Counted from the stretch's first letter, positions 1,575 to 24,164 are shown. The stretch: 33,697 nt of DNA from Alphaproteobacteria bacterium (GCA_021413465.1 JAIOQG010000087.1:1-33697), one strand, 5' to 3'. Notes: generated by a model from the sequence alone, not told the origin. Numbers and translations are program-made.

Positions 1575-2603
1575 TTGGCAAGCACGAACGATTCGGCGCT
1601 CGACGGACTGACATTGGACGACTATGGCTGGAGTCCGCATTTCGCGGGCCAGCTGAGTGACGCAGATGCGGGCACCCTGCCCGTGCGCGTTATGGCGGTG
1701 CATCGCGATGCGCTGGATGTCGCGGGACCCGAATTCGAGGGACGCATTGCGGGTCTGGCGCGGCGCGACGACGGCCAGACCGCGACGGTCGGCGATTGGT
1801 TGTTGATCGACGGCGCGCGGCGGGCGGTGCGCCTGCTCGAGCGTTGCAGTTTGTTCACGCGCAAGAGTGCCGGCACGGCGCGCCGCGTGCAGTTGATCGC
1901 GGCAAACATCGACACGATGTTGTTGCTGACCTCCGCCAATCAGGATTTCAACCTGGCGCGGCTTGAGCGGTTTTTGGCTTTGGCGTCCGAAGCGCACGTT
2001 ACGCCCGTCGTTTTAATCACGAAGGCCGATCTGGCCGAGGATGTTGCGCCCTATATCGCATCGGTGCGGCGGTTGATGCCGGGCATCGCGGTCGAGGCGT
2101 TCGACGCGCGCAGCGCGGATGCGGCCGTGCAATTGAAGCCTTGGTTCGGGCGCGGCAAAACGCTGGTGCTGCTCGGGTCTTCGGGGGTCGGCAAGTCGAC
2201 CCTGGTCAACAGTTTGATGGGCCGCCTGCTGCAGGAAACGCAAAGCGTGCGCGGCGACGACGATAAGGGGCGGCACACGACGTCGGGGCGCTCGTTGCAC
2301 CGGTTGCCCAACGGCGCCTGGCTCATCGATACGCCAGGCATCCGCGAGCTGCAGCTGATCGATGCGGCGCAAGGGGTGGACGAGGTGTTCGAAGACGTGG
2401 CTTTGCTGGCCGCTGGCTGCCGGTTCAGCAACTGCACACATGAAAGCGAACCCGGTTGCGCGGTTCAGGCGGCGCTGGCCGACGGCACGCTCGATGCGCC
2501 GCGGCTCAAGCGGTTTCAAAAGCTACAAGCGGAAGAGCGGCAGAATACGAACGCCGTTGCGCGCGCCAAACGACCCGGGCGCCTGGCGAAGCGCGAGCGC
2601 TGA
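1575..2603 (+). CDS. RsgA-like GTPase, copy 2 (tandem paralog)
   Basis: Co-linear with copy 1: TKAD, GSSGVGKSTLVN, GRHTTSGRSL, DTPGIRE, CRFSNCTHESEPGC. TTG start. Confidence 0.88.
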   Translation: MASTNDSALDGLTLDDYGWSPHFAGQLSDADAGTLPVRVMAVHRDALDVAGPEFEGRIAGLARRDDGQTATVGDWLLIDGARRAVRLLERCSLFTRKSAGTARRVQLIAANIDTMLLLTSANQDFNLARLERFLALASEAHVTPVVLITKADLAEDVAPYIASVRRLMPGIAVEAFDARSADAAVQLKPWFGRGKTLVLLGSSGVGKSTLVNSLMGRLLQETQSVRGDDDKGRHTTSGRSLHRLPNGAWLIDTPGIRELQLIDAAQGVDEVFEDVALLAAGCRFSNCTHESEPGCAVQAALADGTLDAPRLKRFQKLQAEERQNTNAVARAKRPGRLAKRER

Positions 2604-8472: not shown

Positions 8473-9768
8473 TTATTTGATTTTGTAGCGCACCGGCATC
8501 TTTTTCGGGCCGTTGACGAAATTCGCGGCCGATAGACGGGGTTCGCCGTTGAATTCGATCGATTCCAGACGCGGGATCAGTTCGTCGAACAGCGCGCGCA
8601 TTTCCATTTTGGCGAGATGCTGGCCGATGCAGACATGGGCGCCGAAGCCGAACGACAGCAGCTTGTTCGGGCTGCGGTCGACTTTGAACTTGAACGGTTC
8701 GTCGAAGACTTCCTCGTCGCGGTTGCCCGACGGGTAGAGCAGCATCAGCCAATCGTCTTTTTTGATCGTTTGGCCGCGCAGTTCGTAGTCCGCCGTCGCC
8801 GAGCGCATAAAGTGGCGCACCGGCGTCGTCCAGCGGATTGCTTCGTCGACGAAGCCCGGCATCAGCGCCGGGTTGTCTTTCAGCTTCTTGAATTCGGCCG
8901 GATTGTCGATCAAGGCCCACATGCCGCCCGCGGTCGAGGCGCTGGTGGTGTCGTGACCGGCGGCGGCGAGGATGACGTAATAGGACATGGCGTTGAAGGG
9001 ATCGAGCGGTTGGCCGTCGATCTTGCCGTTGGCGATGACGCTCGCCACATCGTCGCGCGGATGGGCGCGGCGGTCTTCGGTGATGGCGTTGAAGTATTGG
9101 AAGAAATCCATCACGGTCGCCTGCAGCGAGGCGACGGCCTCGTCGCTCATCAGCGCGCCAAAGCCGCCGGGTGCATCGCCGGCGCGGCCAAGTTCGGGAT
9201 CGGTGGCGCCGAACAGTTCCTGCGTCAGTTTCAGCATGCGCGGCTCATCGGCTTCCGGCACGCCAAGGATGTCCATGATGACGCGCAGCGGATACCAGAC
9301 GGCGACGTCGGAGACGAAATCGCAGCTGCCGTCTTTTTCCGCCATGCGATCGACGTAGATCTTGGCCAGCTGGCGCAAGCGCGGTTCGAGCTTGCGCAAG
9401 TTTTGCGGCAGGAACCAAGATTGAGTCAGCACGCGATATTTCGAGTGGTCGGGCGGGTCCATCTGCACCAGCGACTTCACGAGATGCGGCGTGCCGGTGA
9501 TTTTCATCACCTGTTCGGTTGCGGCCTTGGTCGTGAACGTGGTCGATTTCACACCGTTCATGAACAGCGCGTTCTGCTTGCTGATGTCGAGAATGTCGGC
9601 GTGTTTCGACACCGCCCAAAAGGGCTCGCAACCTTCGACCTCGGCGATGGCGAGCGGGTAGTCCGCGCGCATTTTCGTAAAGGCGCCGTGGATGCGGCCT
9701 GCGTCCGCATGCGCCAACGGGTCGACGATCGTCAGCGCCAGGTCTGCCGGCAGATGCGGTGCGCTCAT
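8473..9768 (-). CDS. Cytochrome P450
   Basis: I-helix AAAGHDTTSAS, ExxR (DEAIR), heme loop FGFGAHVCIGQHLAKMEMR. Confidence 0.95.
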   Translation of the reverse strand: MSAPHLPADLALTIVDPLAHADAGRIHGAFTKMRADYPLAIAEVEGCEPFWAVSKHADILDISKQNALFMNGVKSTTFTTKAATEQVMKITGTPHLVKSLVQMDPPDHSKYRVLTQSWFLPQNLRKLEPRLRQLAKIYVDRMAEKDGSCDFVSDVAVWYPLRVIMDILGVPEADEPRMLKLTQELFGATDPELGRAGDAPGGFGALMSDEAVASLQATVMDFFQYFNAITEDRRAHPRDDVASVIANGKIDGQPLDPFNAMSYYVILAAAGHDTTSASTAGGMWALIDNPAEFKKLKDNPALMPGFVDEAIRWTTPVRHFMRSATADYELRGQTIKKDDWLMLLYPSGNRDEEVFDEPFKFKVDRSPNKLLSFGFGAHVCIGQHLAKMEMRALFDELIPRLESIEFNGEPRLSAANFVNGPKKMPVRYKIK

Positions 9769-9771
9769 CGT

Positions 9772-11016
9772 TTAGCGGCCGGTCGGGAGCTTGTTGAACG
9801 GGATGTCCTTGTCGACGCGAATGTCGGCGGGAAGACCCAGCACGCGCTCGGCGATGATGTTCTTCAAGATTTCATCCGTGCCGCCGGCGATGCGCAGGCC
9901 CGGTGCCCACATGTAGGATTGCTGGAACGCGCCCATTTGCGGCGAGTCCTCGCCGACCATGACGCCGCCCATGTCTTCCAAATCCATGGCGAAGGACGAC
10001 AGGTCCTGCATCTTCGGCGCGACGACGACTTTCGCGATCGAGGCTTCGGGGCCGGGCACCTTGCCTTGGCTGAGCGCAGTCAGGGTGCGGTAGGTGGTGT
10101 ATTTCAGGCCCTGGCCGCGGACGTACCATTCGGCAATCCGCTCGCGCACGGCCGAGTTGCGGATGGCGGGGCCGTCTTCGAGTTCCGTTTCACGCGCAAG
10201 CGCGATGAGTTCTTTGATGTCGGGGCCGGAGCCGCCGGCGCCGCCGCCGACCGCCAGACGCTCATGCATCAAGGTGGTGAGGGCCACGCCCCAGCCTGCG
10301 CCGACTTCGCCGAGGCGCTGGGAATCGGGGATGCGGACGTTGGTGAAATAGACTTCGTTGAAGTTCGCGCCGCCGGACATTTGCTTGATGGGCTTCACTT
10401 CGACGCCCGGCGATTTCATCGACAGGTAGAACATCGTCAGGCCTTTGTGCTTTTGCGCCGTCGGGTCGGTGCGCGTAAGCAAAATGCCGAAGTCGGAATA
10501 GTGGGCGCCGGAGGTCCAGACCTTCTGGCCGTTGACGATCCAATCGTCACCGTCCTTTTCGGCGCGCGTGCGCAGGCCAGCAACGTCGGAGCCGGCCGAG
10601 GGTTCGGAGAAGAGCTGGCACCAGATCTCCTCGCCGTAAAGCGCCGGCTTCACATAGCGCGCGGCGACTTCTTTCGAGGCGTAGTGCGTGACGGTCGGGA
10701 TGCACATGCCGAGCCCGATTTCGAAGAAGCCCGAGGGCACGTCGAACTTCGCTTCTTCCTGGCTGTAGACGACCTGCTGCATCGGGGTGCCGCCGAGGCC
10801 GCCGTTCTCCTTCGGCCAGGTGATACGGGCGTAGCGCTTCTCGGCTTTCTTCGCCTGCCAGGCCTTGGCGATTTTCAACGAGTCGGCTTCGTTGCGTTGG
10901 AAGCGCGGGTTCTCGGCGGAGAAGCCGGTCGCGCTTTTCGGTTTGGCGTTCGCTTCTAGCCAGGCGCGCACTTCTTGGCGGAAGGTGGCTTCGGCGGGGG
11001 TGTCGTTGAAATCCAT
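9772..11016 (-). CDS. Acyl-CoA dehydrogenase family protein (large, FadE29-like type)
   Basis: EPSAGSDVAGLRTRAEKDGDDWIVNGQKVWTSGAH; C-terminal RIAGGTDEILKNIIAERVLGLP. Three nt from the P450 gene. Confidence 0.9.
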   Translation of the reverse strand: MDFNDTPAEATFRQEVRAWLEANAKPKSATGFSAENPRFQRNEADSLKIAKAWQAKKAEKRYARITWPKENGGLGGTPMQQVVYSQEEAKFDVPSGFFEIGLGMCIPTVTHYASKEVAARYVKPALYGEEIWCQLFSEPSAGSDVAGLRTRAEKDGDDWIVNGQKVWTSGAHYSDFGILLTRTDPTAQKHKGLTMFYLSMKSPGVEVKPIKQMSGGANFNEVYFTNVRIPDSQRLGEVGAGWGVALTTLMHERLAVGGGAGGSGPDIKELIALARETELEDGPAIRNSAVRERIAEWYVRGQGLKYTTYRTLTALSQGKVPGPEASIAKVVVAPKMQDLSSFAMDLEDMGGVMVGEDSPQMGAFQQSYMWAPGLRIAGGTDEILKNIIAERVLGLPADIRVDKDIPFNKLPTGR

Positions 11017-19072: not shown

Positions 19073-19882
19073 ATGTCGTCCAAGTGCGCCACCTTTCGCC
19101 ACCTGCATGAGAGCGGTTGTTTCGTTATTCCCAATCCGTGGGATCGCGGCAGCGCGATCTATCTTCAGAGTTTGGGTTTCAAAGCGATTGCCAGCACGAG
19201 TGCGGGGCTCGCGTGGTCGTCGGGGCGGCCGGACAATGGCGTGACGGTCGATCTGGTGCTGGCGCATTTGAAGGAAATTGCTTCGGCGACCACGATACCG
19301 CTGAATGCGGACTTCGAGGGTGGCTTTGCGATCGAGCCTGCGGGCGTTGCAGCGAACGTCACGCGGGCGGTCGCAACCGGTATTGCCGGGCTTTCGATCG
19401 AAGACGCCACGGGCGACGCGCAAAATCCGCTGTTCGACTTCAAGCTTGCCGTCGAGCGCATCAGAGCCGCGCGCGCGGCCATCGATGCGTCGGGAACAGG
19501 CGTCGTGTTGACGGGACGCTCGGAGGGTTTCTTCGCCGGGCGGCCGGACATCAAGGAAACGATCAGGCGCCTTGAAGCGTACGCGGCGGCGGGCGCCGAT
19601 TGTCTTTACGCGCCCGGGATAAAAACGAAGGACGATATTGTCGCTGTCGTGAAAGCGGTGGCACCCAAGCCGGTGAACCTTCTTGTCGCCGGCAATTGGA
19701 TCACCGTTGCGGAAGCTGCAGACTTGGGGGTCAGACGCATCAGCGTCGGCGCGGCGTTGGCACGCGCGGCGTGGATTGGCTTTGCGAAAGCGGCCACCGA
19801 GATTGCCGAAAAGGGTTCGTTTGGCGGCTTTGTTTCGGGCGGACCTGCCCTCGATCTCAACGAATTGTTTCGCCGAAAATGA
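19073..19882 (+). CDS. Isocitrate lyase/phosphoenolpyruvate mutase family protein
   Basis: IPNPWDRGSAIYLQSLGFKAIASTSAGLAWSSGRPD, LNADFEGGFA, GLSIEDATG, VLTGRSEGFFAGRPD. Confidence 0.88.
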   Translation: MSSKCATFRHLHESGCFVIPNPWDRGSAIYLQSLGFKAIASTSAGLAWSSGRPDNGVTVDLVLAHLKEIASATTIPLNADFEGGFAIEPAGVAANVTRAVATGIAGLSIEDATGDAQNPLFDFKLAVERIRAARAAIDASGTGVVLTGRSEGFFAGRPDIKETIRRLEAYAAAGADCLYAPGIKTKDDIVAVVKAVAPKPVNLLVAGNWITVAEAADLGVRRISVGAALARAAWIGFAKAATEIAEKGSFGGFVSGGPALDLNELFRRK

Positions 19883-19885
19883 AGA

Positions 19886-21418
19886 TCAATGACCAGCGGC
19901 GGCGCGCGCATGAGCGGCCGGCGAGGCCTTGAGTAAGGCTCCAAGACGCTTCGCGCTTTCGCGGAGCTTTTCGGGGCGGAAGCCCGCAAAGCCAAGCAGG
20001 AGCCCTGACTGTTTGGGCTCGTTGGCGTAGAAGCGACTCAGCGGTTCGACGAGGATGCCGGCATCGCGTGCGGCGGCGGCGAAGGCGACGTCGTCTAGGG
20101 GTTGCGCGAATTTTGCGCAAAGGTGAAGTCCTGCCGTTGCATTGTCGAGCAAAAACACGCCGCCGCATTCTTCGCGCAGCGCGCTCAGCAAGGCGTCGCG
20201 GCGCTCCTGATACGCTTCTTTGCAGCGTCGCACGTGCTTCACGAACTGTCCGGAGGCGAGAAAATCCGCCAAGACGATTTGGTTGGGAACGGTGGCGTAG
20301 CGCTCGGTCTGGCGTAACGTTTCGCTGAAGCGTTCGCAGATGGGCTTCGGGACGATGAGGTAGGACAAGCGCAGCGAGGGGAAGATCGTTGTGCTGAAGG
20401 TGTTCATGTACAAGACGCGCGATGCGCCGAGCATGGTGAAGAGCGCCGGAGAGGGGCGCCCAACGTCGAACTCGCCCGCGAAGTCGTCTTCGAGGATGAA
20501 CGAACCGACCGACGCCGACCATTCCAGAAGACTTTGCTTGCGCGCATCCGAGAGGCGGACGCCGGACGGAAACTGAAATGACGGCGTGACGATTGCCATC
20601 GCCGCCTTAGGCGCCAGGCGACGTCCGTCGGCGATATCTAGGCCCTCGCTATCGACCGCGACGGGTACCGGCGCCAAGCCGGCCGCTTGAAGGGCGGTGC
20701 GGGTGCGGAAGTATCCAGGCTCCTCCATCCACACGACGCTACCGGGACGACAAAGCACTTCGCCGGCCAGCAGAATCGCCGCATGCGCGCTGGTGGTGAC
20801 GAAGACTTGCGACGGCAAGCAATTGATGCCGCGCGCCGTTGCAACGTGGCGCGCGATAGCTGCACGCAGTTCCGGCCAACCGCCGTCGTGGCCCGGTTGA
20901 AGAGCGTCGAGCGGCATTTCCTTCCAGCGGCGCGCTTGCATGCGTCGCCACACTTGCATCGGAAAGAGATCGAGCCCCGGCACGCCGACGGCAAAGGGGA
21001 TGTGGGGCTTAAGCGAGTCCGAATGATCCGGATCGGTTTTGTCCGGCTTGATATTGGACGCCGTTCCCGACCACGAGACATAGGTGCCGGACCTGCTGCG
21101 CGCTTCGGCCAAACCTTCGGCGATCAACATGTCGACGGCGATGACGGAGGTCCAGCGCGAAACGCCGGCGTCGCGCGCGATCAGGCGCGTGCCCGGCAGT
21201 TTTTCGCCGTGCCGCAAGGCGCCATCCAGTATCCGGTTACGCAACGTTTCGAACAGGCGCTCGGCCAATGCGAGGTCGCCGTCTTTTTGCGTCAGCTTTC
21301 CTATCCCCAATGCCCGGCGCACAAATGTCTTTCGCTCCGCCCCGATGTGTCGCGTGACGCTATCATTTGTTTTACACGCGGCGTTCAAAAGCGCGTGATG
21401 ATCCGCAACAAAACGCAA
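19886..21418 (-). CDS. MocR/PdxR-like regulator, paralog 1 (GntR HTH plus aminotransferase-like domain lacking the Schiff-base Lys)
   Basis: HTH LAERLFETLRNRILDGALRHGEKLPGTRLIARDAGVSRWTSVIAVDMLIAEGLAEARSRSGTYV; aminotransferase region with VTPSFQFPSG, EDDFAGEF, NTFSTTIFPSLRLSYLIVP. TTG start uncertain. Confidence 0.85.
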   Translation of the reverse strand: MRFVADHHALLNAACKTNDSVTRHIGAERKTFVRRALGIGKLTQKDGDLALAERLFETLRNRILDGALRHGEKLPGTRLIARDAGVSRWTSVIAVDMLIAEGLAEARSRSGTYVSWSGTASNIKPDKTDPDHSDSLKPHIPFAVGVPGLDLFPMQVWRRMQARRWKEMPLDALQPGHDGGWPELRAAIARHVATARGINCLPSQVFVTTSAHAAILLAGEVLCRPGSVVWMEEPGYFRTRTALQAAGLAPVPVAVDSEGLDIADGRRLAPKAAMAIVTPSFQFPSGVRLSDARKQSLLEWSASVGSFILEDDFAGEFDVGRPSPALFTMLGASRVLYMNTFSTTIFPSLRLSYLIVPKPICERFSETLRQTERYATVPNQIVLADFLASGQFVKHVRRCKEAYQERRDALLSALREECGGVFLLDNATAGLHLCAKFAQPLDDVAFAAAARDAGILVEPLSRFYANEPKQSGLLLGFAGFRPEKLRESAKRLGALLKASPAAHARAAAGH

Positions 21419-21427
21419 CAGCGTTGC

Positions 21428-21439
21428 CGAAACTGGATC
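21428..21439 (+). promoter_or_regulatory. Candidate operator, copy 1 of the repeated 12-mer CGAAACTGGATC (upstream of MocR-like paralog 1)
   Basis: Exact match to the 12-mer at 23076 and 23161. Confidence 0.45.
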
Positions 21440-21482
21440 GATTCAGGCGCTCGATCTGGGCAATGAATGACGCCTTGCTCGT

Positions 21483-23006
21483 TCATCCGGCAGCGGCGCG
21501 ACTGTGGACGACGTGGAAGGCGTTGAGCACGCCGGCAAGTTTCTGTACGCCCGCACGCAAGGCTTCAGGGCGATGAGCTGCAAAGCCGAGGAGCAATCCG
21601 CAGTCGGCCGTGGGGTTGGCATAGAAGGCGCTCAACGGCTCTGCGACGACGCCCACCTCGCGCAGACGCTTGGACACCGCGACATCATCGGTCCCCGGCG
21701 GCAAACGGGTGCAGACGTGCAAGCCGCGTTGGCCCTCTTCAACCGTTAAGAGACCACCACATTCTTCGCTTAGCGCGTACAACAACGCGTCGCGGCGTTG
21801 CGTGTATGCCTCGCGACAGCGCCGGAGGTGTTTGCCGAGTTGTCCGGAGGCAAGAAAGTCGGCCAAGATGATTTGGTTCGGCACGCCGGGCGGGCGATCG
21901 AAATCGTGCTTGGCTGCATGGACGCGCTCCAACGCTTCGCGCGGCACGATCAAGAACGCGACGCGAAGCGCGGGGAACAGCAGCTTGCCGAAGGTATCGA
22001 AGTAGATCACGCGCTTGGCACCCGGCATCGCCGCCATGGGCTGAGAGTCCGGGAGGCCGAACGGAAATTCGGAGGCGTGATCGACTTCCAATATCCAAGA
22101 ATCCGCCGACGACGCCCAATCCATCATACGGCGCCGGCGCGCGTTCGACATCCGAATACCGGTCGGGAATTGCACAGAGGGCGAAACGACGGCCATCGAT
22201 GCCAAGGGGGCCAGTCTGCAGCCTTCATCGACATCGAGACCTTCGCGATCGAGCGCCACTGGCAGCGGTTCGAGATTTGAGCTCGTGACGACGGCGCGCG
22301 CGATCGGCGGTCCGGGGTTTTCGATCCAGGCGAAGTTTCCGGGGCGGCATAGCGCCTTGGCCGCCAAGCGACCGGCGGCTTCGACGCTCGACACGACGAC
22401 GACCTGTTCGGCGGTGCATTGAATGCCGCGGGTCGTTGCCGCGTATTCCGCGATCGCTTGGCGCAAGGCCGGCCAGCCTTCGGGATCGCCGTCATCAAGC
22501 GCCTCCGACGGCATCTGACGCCATCGGCGACCCTGAAGTCGCCGCCAAACATGCATCGGGAAGAGTTCCAATGCAGGCGTCGCGATCTCGAAAGGCACGT
22601 TCGGCCGCGGCGACGACGTTTGGTTTGAAGCTTGCTCGTCCTTCCTGCTTTCACCGCGCCAAGCGACGTAGGTGCCGGAGCGCTTTCTCGCTTCGACCAA
22701 GCCTTCGGCAATCAGCATGTCGACGGCCACGACGGCCGTCCAACGCGAAACGCCCGCATCGCGCGCGAGCAGCCGCGTGCCGGGTAATTTTTCGCCGTAG
22801 CGCCACAGGCCGTCGCGGATGCGGTTGCGCATGTTTTCGAACAGGCGCTCGGCCAGCGCCATATCGCCATCGCCGCGCGCGAAATTGACGATGCCCAATG
22901 CGGTGCGCGCCACGTTGTCATTCTCCCCGACCAACCCAGGGCTTAGGCTATCACTCCATTTTGAGCCGACGTTCAAAAGGGCGTGATCGTTGGCGCCGTC
23001 TTTCAT
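21483..23006 (-). CDS. MocR/PdxR-like regulator, paralog 2 (GntR HTH plus degenerate aminotransferase-like domain)
   Basis: LAERLFENMRNRIRDGLWRYGEKLPGTRLLARDAGVSRWTAVVAVDMLIAEGLVEARKRSGTYV; VSPSVQFPTG, EVDHASEF, DTFGKLLFPALRVAFLIVP. Start at MKDGANDHALLN (23006) preferred over 23042. Confidence 0.86.
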   Translation of the reverse strand: MKDGANDHALLNVGSKWSDSLSPGLVGENDNVARTALGIVNFARGDGDMALAERLFENMRNRIRDGLWRYGEKLPGTRLLARDAGVSRWTAVVAVDMLIAEGLVEARKRSGTYVAWRGESRKDEQASNQTSSPRPNVPFEIATPALELFPMHVWRRLQGRRWRQMPSEALDDGDPEGWPALRQAIAEYAATTRGIQCTAEQVVVVSSVEAAGRLAAKALCRPGNFAWIENPGPPIARAVVTSSNLEPLPVALDREGLDVDEGCRLAPLASMAVVSPSVQFPTGIRMSNARRRRMMDWASSADSWILEVDHASEFPFGLPDSQPMAAMPGAKRVIYFDTFGKLLFPALRVAFLIVPREALERVHAAKHDFDRPPGVPNQIILADFLASGQLGKHLRRCREAYTQRRDALLYALSEECGGLLTVEEGQRGLHVCTRLPPGTDDVAVSKRLREVGVVAEPLSAFYANPTADCGLLLGFAAHRPEALRAGVQKLAGVLNAFHVVHSRAAAG

Positions 23007-23075: not shown

Positions 23076-23172
23076 CGAAACTGGATCGTTGACCCGGCCC
23101 CAATTCTGGATTGTTTAATCATTACATATCGGTAACTGGCTCTTGGACCGTTCCTTGGCGCGAAACTGGATC
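23076..23172 (+). promoter_or_regulatory. Cluster of direct repeats CGAAACTGGATC plus degenerate copies in the mocR2/lysR divergent region
   Basis: Exact 12-mers at 23076-23087 and 23161-23172. CTGG cores at 23081, 23106, 23136, 23166 (spacing 25, 30, 30 bp). Confidence 0.5.
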
Positions 23173-23240
23173 TTGGCTTCTTCCGTGCGCTGATGATCAT
23201 TCCGCACAACAGAGTAAGTTCATTTACCGGTGGCGCAACA

Positions 23241-24164
23241 ATGACGATCGATCGGCTGGATGCGATGCGGACGTTTGTGGAAATCGTCGACGCGGGATCG
23301 TTTTCGGCGGCGGCGCGGCGGATGGGCGTGTCGGTGCCGGCGATCAGCCGCAGGCTGGCGGGCTTTGAAGAGCGGCTGGGAACGCTCCTCATGCATCGCA
23401 CGACGCGCAGCCAGGAACTTACCGAATACGGCCGCAGCTATTACGAGAAAGCCAAGCGCATATTGTCGGACGTGGACGATGCCGAGCTGTCGCTTGAAGG
23501 CATTCGCACATCGCCCTCGGGCGTTCTTCGCGTGGCGGCGCCCAATGTGTTTGGGCGTAAGTTCGTGGCCCCTTTGATGCCCGAGTTCCTGGGTTTGTAC
23601 CCTCGGCTTCGCGTGAATTTGTCTTTGGTTGGCGGGCCTGCAGGAAACGGCACGGAGACCAATGGCAACAGCGACGTGGATGCCTCCATCCATCTGTGTA
23701 TGCCTGCGCCGCAGAAAGATATGGAATCACGCTCGTTGGGGTCATTCCGCCACGTTTTGTGCGCCTCGCCGCGATATGTGGAGCGTTTGGGCGCTCCCAA
23801 ATGTCCGGAGGATCTGGCCCGGCACGACTGCATATTCGAGGCGACGGCGGGCCGCGCCACGTCGTGGCCGTTCCGGCGCCGCGGGCGCGACATGGCCCTG
23901 CCCGTCGACGGCCGCTTGGTATGCGACGATGCCGACGCGGTGCTCAATGCGGCGCTCGCCGGATCGGGAGTGGCGCGCGTGCCGTCCTTCCAGGTGCGCG
24001 ATCACGTGCGGGAACGGCGCTTGGAGATTCTGCTCGAGGATTTCGAACCGCCCGCAACGCAGACGCGGATCGCCTATTCGAAACAGGGCGCGGCGTCGCC
24101 GAAGATCGCGGCGTTCGTCCGGTTTCTGGCGGACAGTATTCCGCAGGAACAGCTCGACCTTTGA
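23241..24164 (+). CDS. LysR family transcriptional regulator
   Basis: MTIDRLDAMRTFVEIVDAGSFSAAARRMGVSVPAISRRLAGFEERLGTLLMHRTTRSQELTEYG; ATG at 23241 preferred over the longer ORF at 23193. Confidence 0.92.
   Translation: MTIDRLDAMRTFVEIVDAGSFSAAARRMGVSVPAISRRLAGFEERLGTLLMHRTTRSQELTEYGRSYYEKAKRILSDVDDAELSLEGIRTSPSGVLRVAAPNVFGRKFVAPLMPEFLGLYPRLRVNLSLVGGPAGNGTETNGNSDVDASIHLCMPAPQKDMESRSLGSFRHVLCASPRYVERLGAPKCPEDLARHDCIFEATAGRATSWPFRRRGRDMALPVDGRLVCDDADAVLNAALAGSGVARVPSFQVRDHVRERRLEILLEDFEPPATQTRIAYSKQGAASPKIAAFVRFLADSIPQEQLDL

Follow-up and report, generated by a model that had tools for sequence, protein, structure and literature searches.

Two adjacent MocR-like regulators, here called P1 and P2, were found in the window, the whole 33,697-nt stretch JAIOQG010000087.1:1-33697 (G000:C44) of Alphaproteobacteria bacterium GCA_021413465.1. 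The source assembly is a draft metagenome-assembled genome (MAG), 82% complete and divided into 417 contigs. Both genes are on the minus strand of the same contig in a head-to-tail arrangement, with P2 upstream and P1 downstream, and their products are 52% identical. P1 has lost the Lys that forms the Schiff base with pyridoxal 5'-phosphate (PLP) in this family, and P2 has lost the Asp that contacts the pyridine nitrogen of the cofactor. The pair probably represents MocR regulators that control their own promoters and a divergent LysR gene independently of an internal aldimine. Judging from the sequences, P1 and P2 look like functional regulators working without the usual sensing chemistry of the family rather than products of error or decay, because related bacteria show the same losses.

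Fold, pocket residues and descent

Both open reading frames (ORFs) carry the Pfam domains GntR and Aminotran_1_2, as the initial annotation had proposed. The fusion of a GntR winged helix-turn-helix (wHTH) domain to a fold-type-I aminotransferase-like domain, typical of MocR proteins, was also recovered in the AlphaFold2 models (mean predicted local distance difference test 90.4 for P1 and 90.1 for P2) and in Foldseek matches to GabR and PdxR. The C-terminal domains of the models superpose on the GabR and PdxR structures at about 2.0-2.4 Å. The scores with the NCBIfam PdxR model (NF052282) were 347.1 and 336.5 bits, both above the cut-off of 320. The best sequence relative in the PDB is GabR for P1 and PdxR for P2.

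Asp279 and Lys312 (GabR numbering, used throughout) have been stated to be conserved in all MocR clusters (PMC6677901). The GabR residues with roles at the cofactor are Tyr205 and Tyr281 (stacking), Phe250, Asp279 (pyridine nitrogen), Lys312 (aldimine) and Arg319 (phosphate), while Arg207 and Arg430 contact the ligand carboxylate (PMC6917764). The motifs quoted in the initial annotation are real: P1 contains LEDDFAGEF, NTFSTTIFPSLR, TTSAHAA and EEPGYFR, and P2 contains LEVDHASEF, DTFGKLLFPALR, VSSVEAA and ENPGPPI. Position 312 is Thr in all five P1 orthologs, encoded by ACA or ACC. A different Lys at the Schiff-base position of P1 was considered and rejected, since the alignment with GabR runs through the Lys motif without gaps and no P1 ortholog has a compensating Lys in the motif. 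Asp279, Tyr205, Phe250, an aromatic residue at 281 and Arg319 are each kept in 5/5 P1 orthologs, together with Ser/Thr311 and, in four of the five, Arg207; Arg430, His248 and Asp282 are absent.

The P2 orthologs show the opposite loss. Lys312 is present in 4/4 of them, with Val, Ala, Gly and Val in place of Asp279, Pro, Thr, Thr and Pro at 205, and His and Gly fixed at 281 and 311 (4/4 each); the window protein has Pro205, His281 and Gly311 instead of the two tyrosines and Ser. Arg207 and Arg430 are missing from P2 as well. By contrast, Lys, Asp, Tyr281 and Arg319 each occur in 30/30 canonical relatives. It is therefore confirmed that the Lys and Asp changes, each fixed in its own clade (P1 or P2), exceed chance. 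The pockets had been called differently degraded; they do differ, but unequally, P1 lacking only Lys among the PLP contacts listed above and P2 lacking Asp279, Tyr205, Tyr281 and Ser311. As far as the alignments tell, P1 is a near-complete PLP cage minus the anchoring Lys, and P2 is the anchor minus most of the cage. An internal aldimine and a response to amines are predicted to be absent in P1 and doubtful in P2. With these substitutions conserved under purifying selection in the orthologs, the idea of pseudo-aminotransferase sensors devoid of the PLP internal aldimine has become the best reading for P1 and a likely one for P2.

The P1/P2 set comprises nine sequences (five P1 and four P2) from one genus, mostly MAGs. 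A search for orthologous tandems, as had been suggested, recovered the P1-P2 arrangement in two related MAGs, G010 and G006. P1 occurs without P2 in G002 (100% complete) and G005 (99%), and P2 was found in G004 at a contig end. Both sets share their substitutions under purifying selection, with dN/dS (the ratio of nonsynonymous to synonymous substitution rates) of about 0.13-0.28 within P1 and P2, values that are approximate with dS above 1 and near saturation. No ortholog found for either protein has the canonical Lys and EDDY; only an out-paralog in G003 is canonical.

In the tree, the P1 clade (100/99) and the P2 clade (100/100) are sisters (100/98) nested within an 11-member clade (100/97) that also holds the canonical G003 protein and a G006 protein with Lys changed to Arg. 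Three G066 proteins, with Asn, Pro and His in place of Lys, extend this clade to 14 members (100/99), 13 of which are without Lys312 or Asp279. On this tree, the duplication is older than the genomes with P1 alone, in which P2 was lost. The next-closest 27 relatives across the class have Lys in 25 cases and Asp in all 27, the exceptions being G157 (Arg) and G260 (Asn). A quick tree of 91 rows implies no fewer than seven changes of state for Lys and no fewer than three for Asp. Loss of Lys is therefore recurrent in these sequences, and its fixation in an orthologous tandem is seen only here.

Sporadic Lys-less MocR-like proteins with Asn, Pro, His, Glu, Arg or Gln at this position were found in G066 (four), G006:C178, G157, G260 and Rhodospirillales TMPK1. 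Unlike P1 and P2, they are single cases or long branches, and none was shown to be conserved as a tandem orthologous pair. The four MocR-like genes on one contig (G066:C207) of a MAG of the same family (L127 2813-4324, 4410-6041, 7031-8569; L057), have Lys changed to Pro, Glu, His and Asn and stand beside a TonB receptor; no boxes were obvious by eye upstream of this cluster. TMPK1 has a divergent MocR pair (L043, 6561-8129 on the minus and 9063-10487 on the plus strand), one member being canonical and the other having Lys changed to Gln and Asp to Leu. The proteins of G157 (L143) and G260 (L160), from other alphaproteobacterial families, are isolated (GTLSRVMFPALR and GALDNTLVPALR). No published description of Lys-less MocR proteins was found in the open papers searched, which did not cover the leading works of the field, and such absence is unproven.

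Promoter-like elements, operator-like boxes and the locus

Promoter and operator calls are comparative (Table 1). DNA resembling TCACGCG[C/T]NTTTGAA-N17-TGATA, similar to a -35/-10 promoter, precedes every P1 and P2 gene; the exact TCACGCGCWTTTGAAC of this element occurs once in the genome. The P2-LysR intergenic region contains four predicted sites with the consensus GATCCAG[T/A]TT[C/T], all in one direction and 30, 30 and 25 bp apart, which agrees with the repeated operators of MocR regulators. Matching spacings of 60-62 and then 25 bp are found in G010, G006 and G004, the middle box being the degenerate GATCCAC, and G010 has two boxes before P1. The 11-mer GAAACTGGATC has exactly four copies in the genome, of which three lie at the P1/P2 locus; its reversed control does not occur. 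The fourth copy (G000:C88) lies within an apparent TonB-receptor gene and is probably due to chance.

Identity between P1 and P2 is 70-84% in the wHTH domain and 43-54% in the aminotransferase domain, and all nine proteins share the same recognition segment, AGVSRWT. The operators of MocR proteins frequently consist of direct repeats separated by two to three helical turns; PdxR favours direct repeats in its apo form and inverted ones in its holo form, and the TauR regulator binds direct repeats CTGGACYTAA (PMC5320631), the CTGGA core of which matches that of the boxes. An operator made only of direct repeats would fit regulators fixed in an apo-like state.

The ORFs of both genes open at TTG codons, and the boundary at 23006 in the initial annotation results from taking the ATG as the start of P2. 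Comparative evidence supports the shorter GTG starts at 21322 (P1) and 22913 (P2), each of which is preceded by a GGAG/GGGGAG sequence. The 'HALLN' resemblance of the P1 and P2 N-termini arises because the promoter-like element falls inside the window ORFs; it was rejected as a common N-terminus and represents the conserved DNA element translated.

Table 1. Coordinates of the P1/P2 locus, counted from the first letter of the window
Feature	Coordinates	Strand	Remarks
PEP mutase/isocitrate lyase-family enzyme	19073..19882	+	convergent with P1; adjacency conserved in four genomes
P1, MocR-like regulator	19886..21322	-	GntR wHTH and aminotransferase-like domain; GTG start proposed; ORF opens at TTG 21418
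P1 Lys312-equivalent	20390..20392	-	Thr, codon ACA; Schiff-base position
P1 Asp279-equivalent	20486..20488	-	Asp kept, codon GAC; pyridine-N position
P1 promoter-like element	21360..21398	-	TCACGCGCTTTTGAAC-N17-TGATAG; comparative
Operator-like box, P2-P1 intergenic	21429..21439	+	GAAACTGGATC; upstream of P1 promoter element
P2, MocR-like regulator	21483..22913	-	GTG start proposed; ORF opens at TTG 23042, ATG at 23006
P2 Lys312-equivalent	21984..21986	-	Lys kept, codon AAG; Schiff-base position
P2 Asp279-equivalent	22083..22085	-	Val, codon GTC; pyridine-N position
P2 promoter-like element	22948..22986	-	TCACGCCCTTTTGAAC-N17-TGATAG; comparative
Operator-like box 4	23077..23087	+	GAAACTGGATC
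Operator-like box 3	23102..23112	+	AATTCTGGATT; 25 bp from box 4
Operator-like box 2	23132..23142	+	GTAACTGGCTC; 30 bp from box 3
Operator-like box 1	23162..23172	+	GAAACTGGATC; 30 bp from box 2
Divergent LysR-type regulator	23193..24164	+	adjoins P2 in 4/4 P2-bearing genomes

Among the larger ORFs of the window and the genes next to the orthologs, Pfam and NCBIfam identified LysR, the phosphoenolpyruvate (PEP) mutase family, AcrB/HlyD, a TonB receptor and an M1 peptidase, and no pdx gene; the linkage to pyridoxine or PLP biosynthesis or salvage genes that is expected of PdxR was thus not seen in them. P1 and the PEP mutase-family gene stand tail to tail with touching or overlapping ends in four genomes (window 19882-19888; L031 5899-5902; L032 4215-4218; L033 9966-9969), and there is no sign that the P1/P2 pair controls this gene. 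Elsewhere in the window, two adjoining RsgA-type GTPase genes form tandem paralogs (251-1507 and 1575-2603, plus strand).

Proposed mode of action and its alternatives

Tandem duplication of a PdxR/MocR-like gene would have taken place in a genus of uncultured Alphaproteobacteria, and the canonical PLP internal aldimine would then have been lost from each copy by a different route: P1 through the change of the Schiff-base Lys to Thr with the other parts of the cage kept, P2 through loss of the pyridine-nitrogen Asp, of both stacking tyrosines and of the Ser that precedes a retained Lys. Both products are under selection, are predicted to retain the MocR-type fold and have near-identical recognition domains. 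In dimeric form, they probably recognise the common GATCCAG[T/A]TT direct-repeat boxes in the P2-LysR gap and upstream of P1, and the pair would in this way control its own genes and the divergent LysR gene, the likely target of the four-box operator. Their action would be 'apo-like', with no PLP-Lys aldimine switch, and could be either constitutive or responsive to a non-covalent ligand, for P1 possibly PLP, pyridoxamine 5'-phosphate (PMP) or a preformed aldimine.

Several points weigh against this scheme. It is predicted from sequences and models, and the nine P1/P2 proteins come from a single genus, mostly from MAGs, with dS near saturation. P1 may still hold non-covalent PLP and answer to it, and the Lys of P2 may still allow a weak aldimine. 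Since G002 keeps P1 with no recognisable box, the operator may belong mainly to P2. Finally, loss of the Lys kills regulation in a known member, as the K314A variant of MpaR is inactive and gives no activation (PMC10790758). In favour of the scheme, the Lys302His variant of EnuR holds no PLP and is nevertheless a dimeric, constitutive repressor (PMC8739950). The Lys-to-His and Lys-to-Ala mutants of EnuR and MpaR suggest that P1 cannot work as a canonical member.

A tentative alternative is that the ligand sensed by P1 is bound non-covalently, be it free PLP, PMP or a PLP-amino-acid aldimine formed beforehand, and is held via Asp279, Tyr205, Phe250, Phe/Tyr281 and Arg319, with P2 as a partner or brake that is free of vitamin B6 and blind to ligand. 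Lys-less proteins of fold type I that bind PLP non-covalently do exist. The fixation of the cage in P1 despite the uniform Thr, and the lack of several of the same residues in P2, speak for such a sensor, as do the roles of these residues in GabR (PMC6917764). However, Arg430 and His248/Asp282 are also gone from P1, the Lys302His EnuR variant has no PLP colour, and the retained residues could be structural. Slightly more speculative is a MocR lineage with a converted PLP-aldimine switch, in which P1 might detect a non-covalent B6 form or a PLP-amine adduct and P2 might co-operate as a B6-blind paralog at the same operator, giving a two-protein switch free of internal-aldimine chemistry.

It is unlikely that P1 and P2 are ordinary ligand-blind duplicates, constitutive repressors or activators kept for dosage or autoregulation. 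The constitutive EnuR variant provides a precedent, the wHTH domains are near-identical and the boxes look autoregulatory; yet a sensory domain of 350 residues is under selection and the P1 cage is fixed, neither of which pure dosage needs.

An obligate P1-P2 heterodimer, with each subunit supplying the residue lost from the other, had been proposed in the initial annotation and is now quite improbable. The genes are adjacent, have similar promoters and are kept in tandem in three genomes (the window, G010 and G006), their losses are opposite, and the GabR dimer is domain-swapped. However, the co-occurrence fails, and an obligate pair is not supported because the near-complete G002 and G005 carry P1 without P2. 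In fold type I proteins, a single chain contributes both the Lys and the Asp of a given PLP site. Losses split between P1 and P2 therefore cannot rebuild a pocket, as no site would hold both residues, and P2 is also without Tyr205 and Tyr281. A facultative heterodimer may still form. Gene decay or an assembly or sequencing error, which the draft state of the MAG and the absence of both genes from several related genomes might suggest, is scarcely credible: independent assemblies contain the frames open over their full length, every ortholog has the same substitutions although the codons have turned over, dN/dS is well below 1 and the predicted folds are confident.

Significance and comparison with known systems

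MocR regulators have been presented as PLP-dependent, and both Lys312 and Asp279 as conserved in all clusters (PMC6677901). Laboratory Lys mutants lose regulation. A natural, selected clade without one or the other residue suggests that an aminotransferase domain can persist as a regulatory module in the absence of the usual cofactor chemistry. The clade might also serve as a natural test of the share of PLP in DNA binding, with respect to direct versus inverted repeats and apo versus holo forms. NCBIfam would label both proteins PdxR, a name that implies a PLP response and that P1 and P2 may not deserve.

PdxR of Bacillus clausii (NF052282; PDB 7pq9, 7zla) has the same domain order and fold, and P1 and P2 pass its cut-off and match its structures. 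PdxR, however, binds PLP via the Lys and controls B6 genes, whereas P1 and P2 have lost the Lys or the Asp and adjoin no B6 gene. GabR of Bacillus subtilis (PDB 4n0b, 5x03) shares the domain architecture and autoregulates through direct repeats, to which the predicted direct-repeat boxes of the P1/P2 locus would correspond. For PLP and gamma-aminobutyric acid, GabR uses the Lys312 aldimine, Asp279, Arg207 and Arg430; P1 is without Lys312 and Arg430, and P2 without Asp279, Tyr205, Arg207 and Arg430. The alphaproteobacterial MocR protein TauR of Rhodobacter capsulatus has the direct-repeat operator with the same CTGGA core (PMC5320631) but is a canonical PLP-type regulator of taurine use, genes for which are not found here. 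EnuR Lys302His, a Ruegeria pomeroyi mutant that folds and dimerises with the Lys replaced, is the laboratory equivalent of P1 (PMC8739950); it is engineered, and none of 278 natural EnuR proteins lacks the Lys. The nearest relative with both Lys and Asp is the G003 out-paralog (L035), which is 51% identical to P1, belongs to the same 11-member clade and has one GAGCCAGTTTC box upstream. Unlike P1 and P2, it keeps EDDYDSEF and NTFSKTLFPALR intact and is encoded by a single gene with different neighbours.

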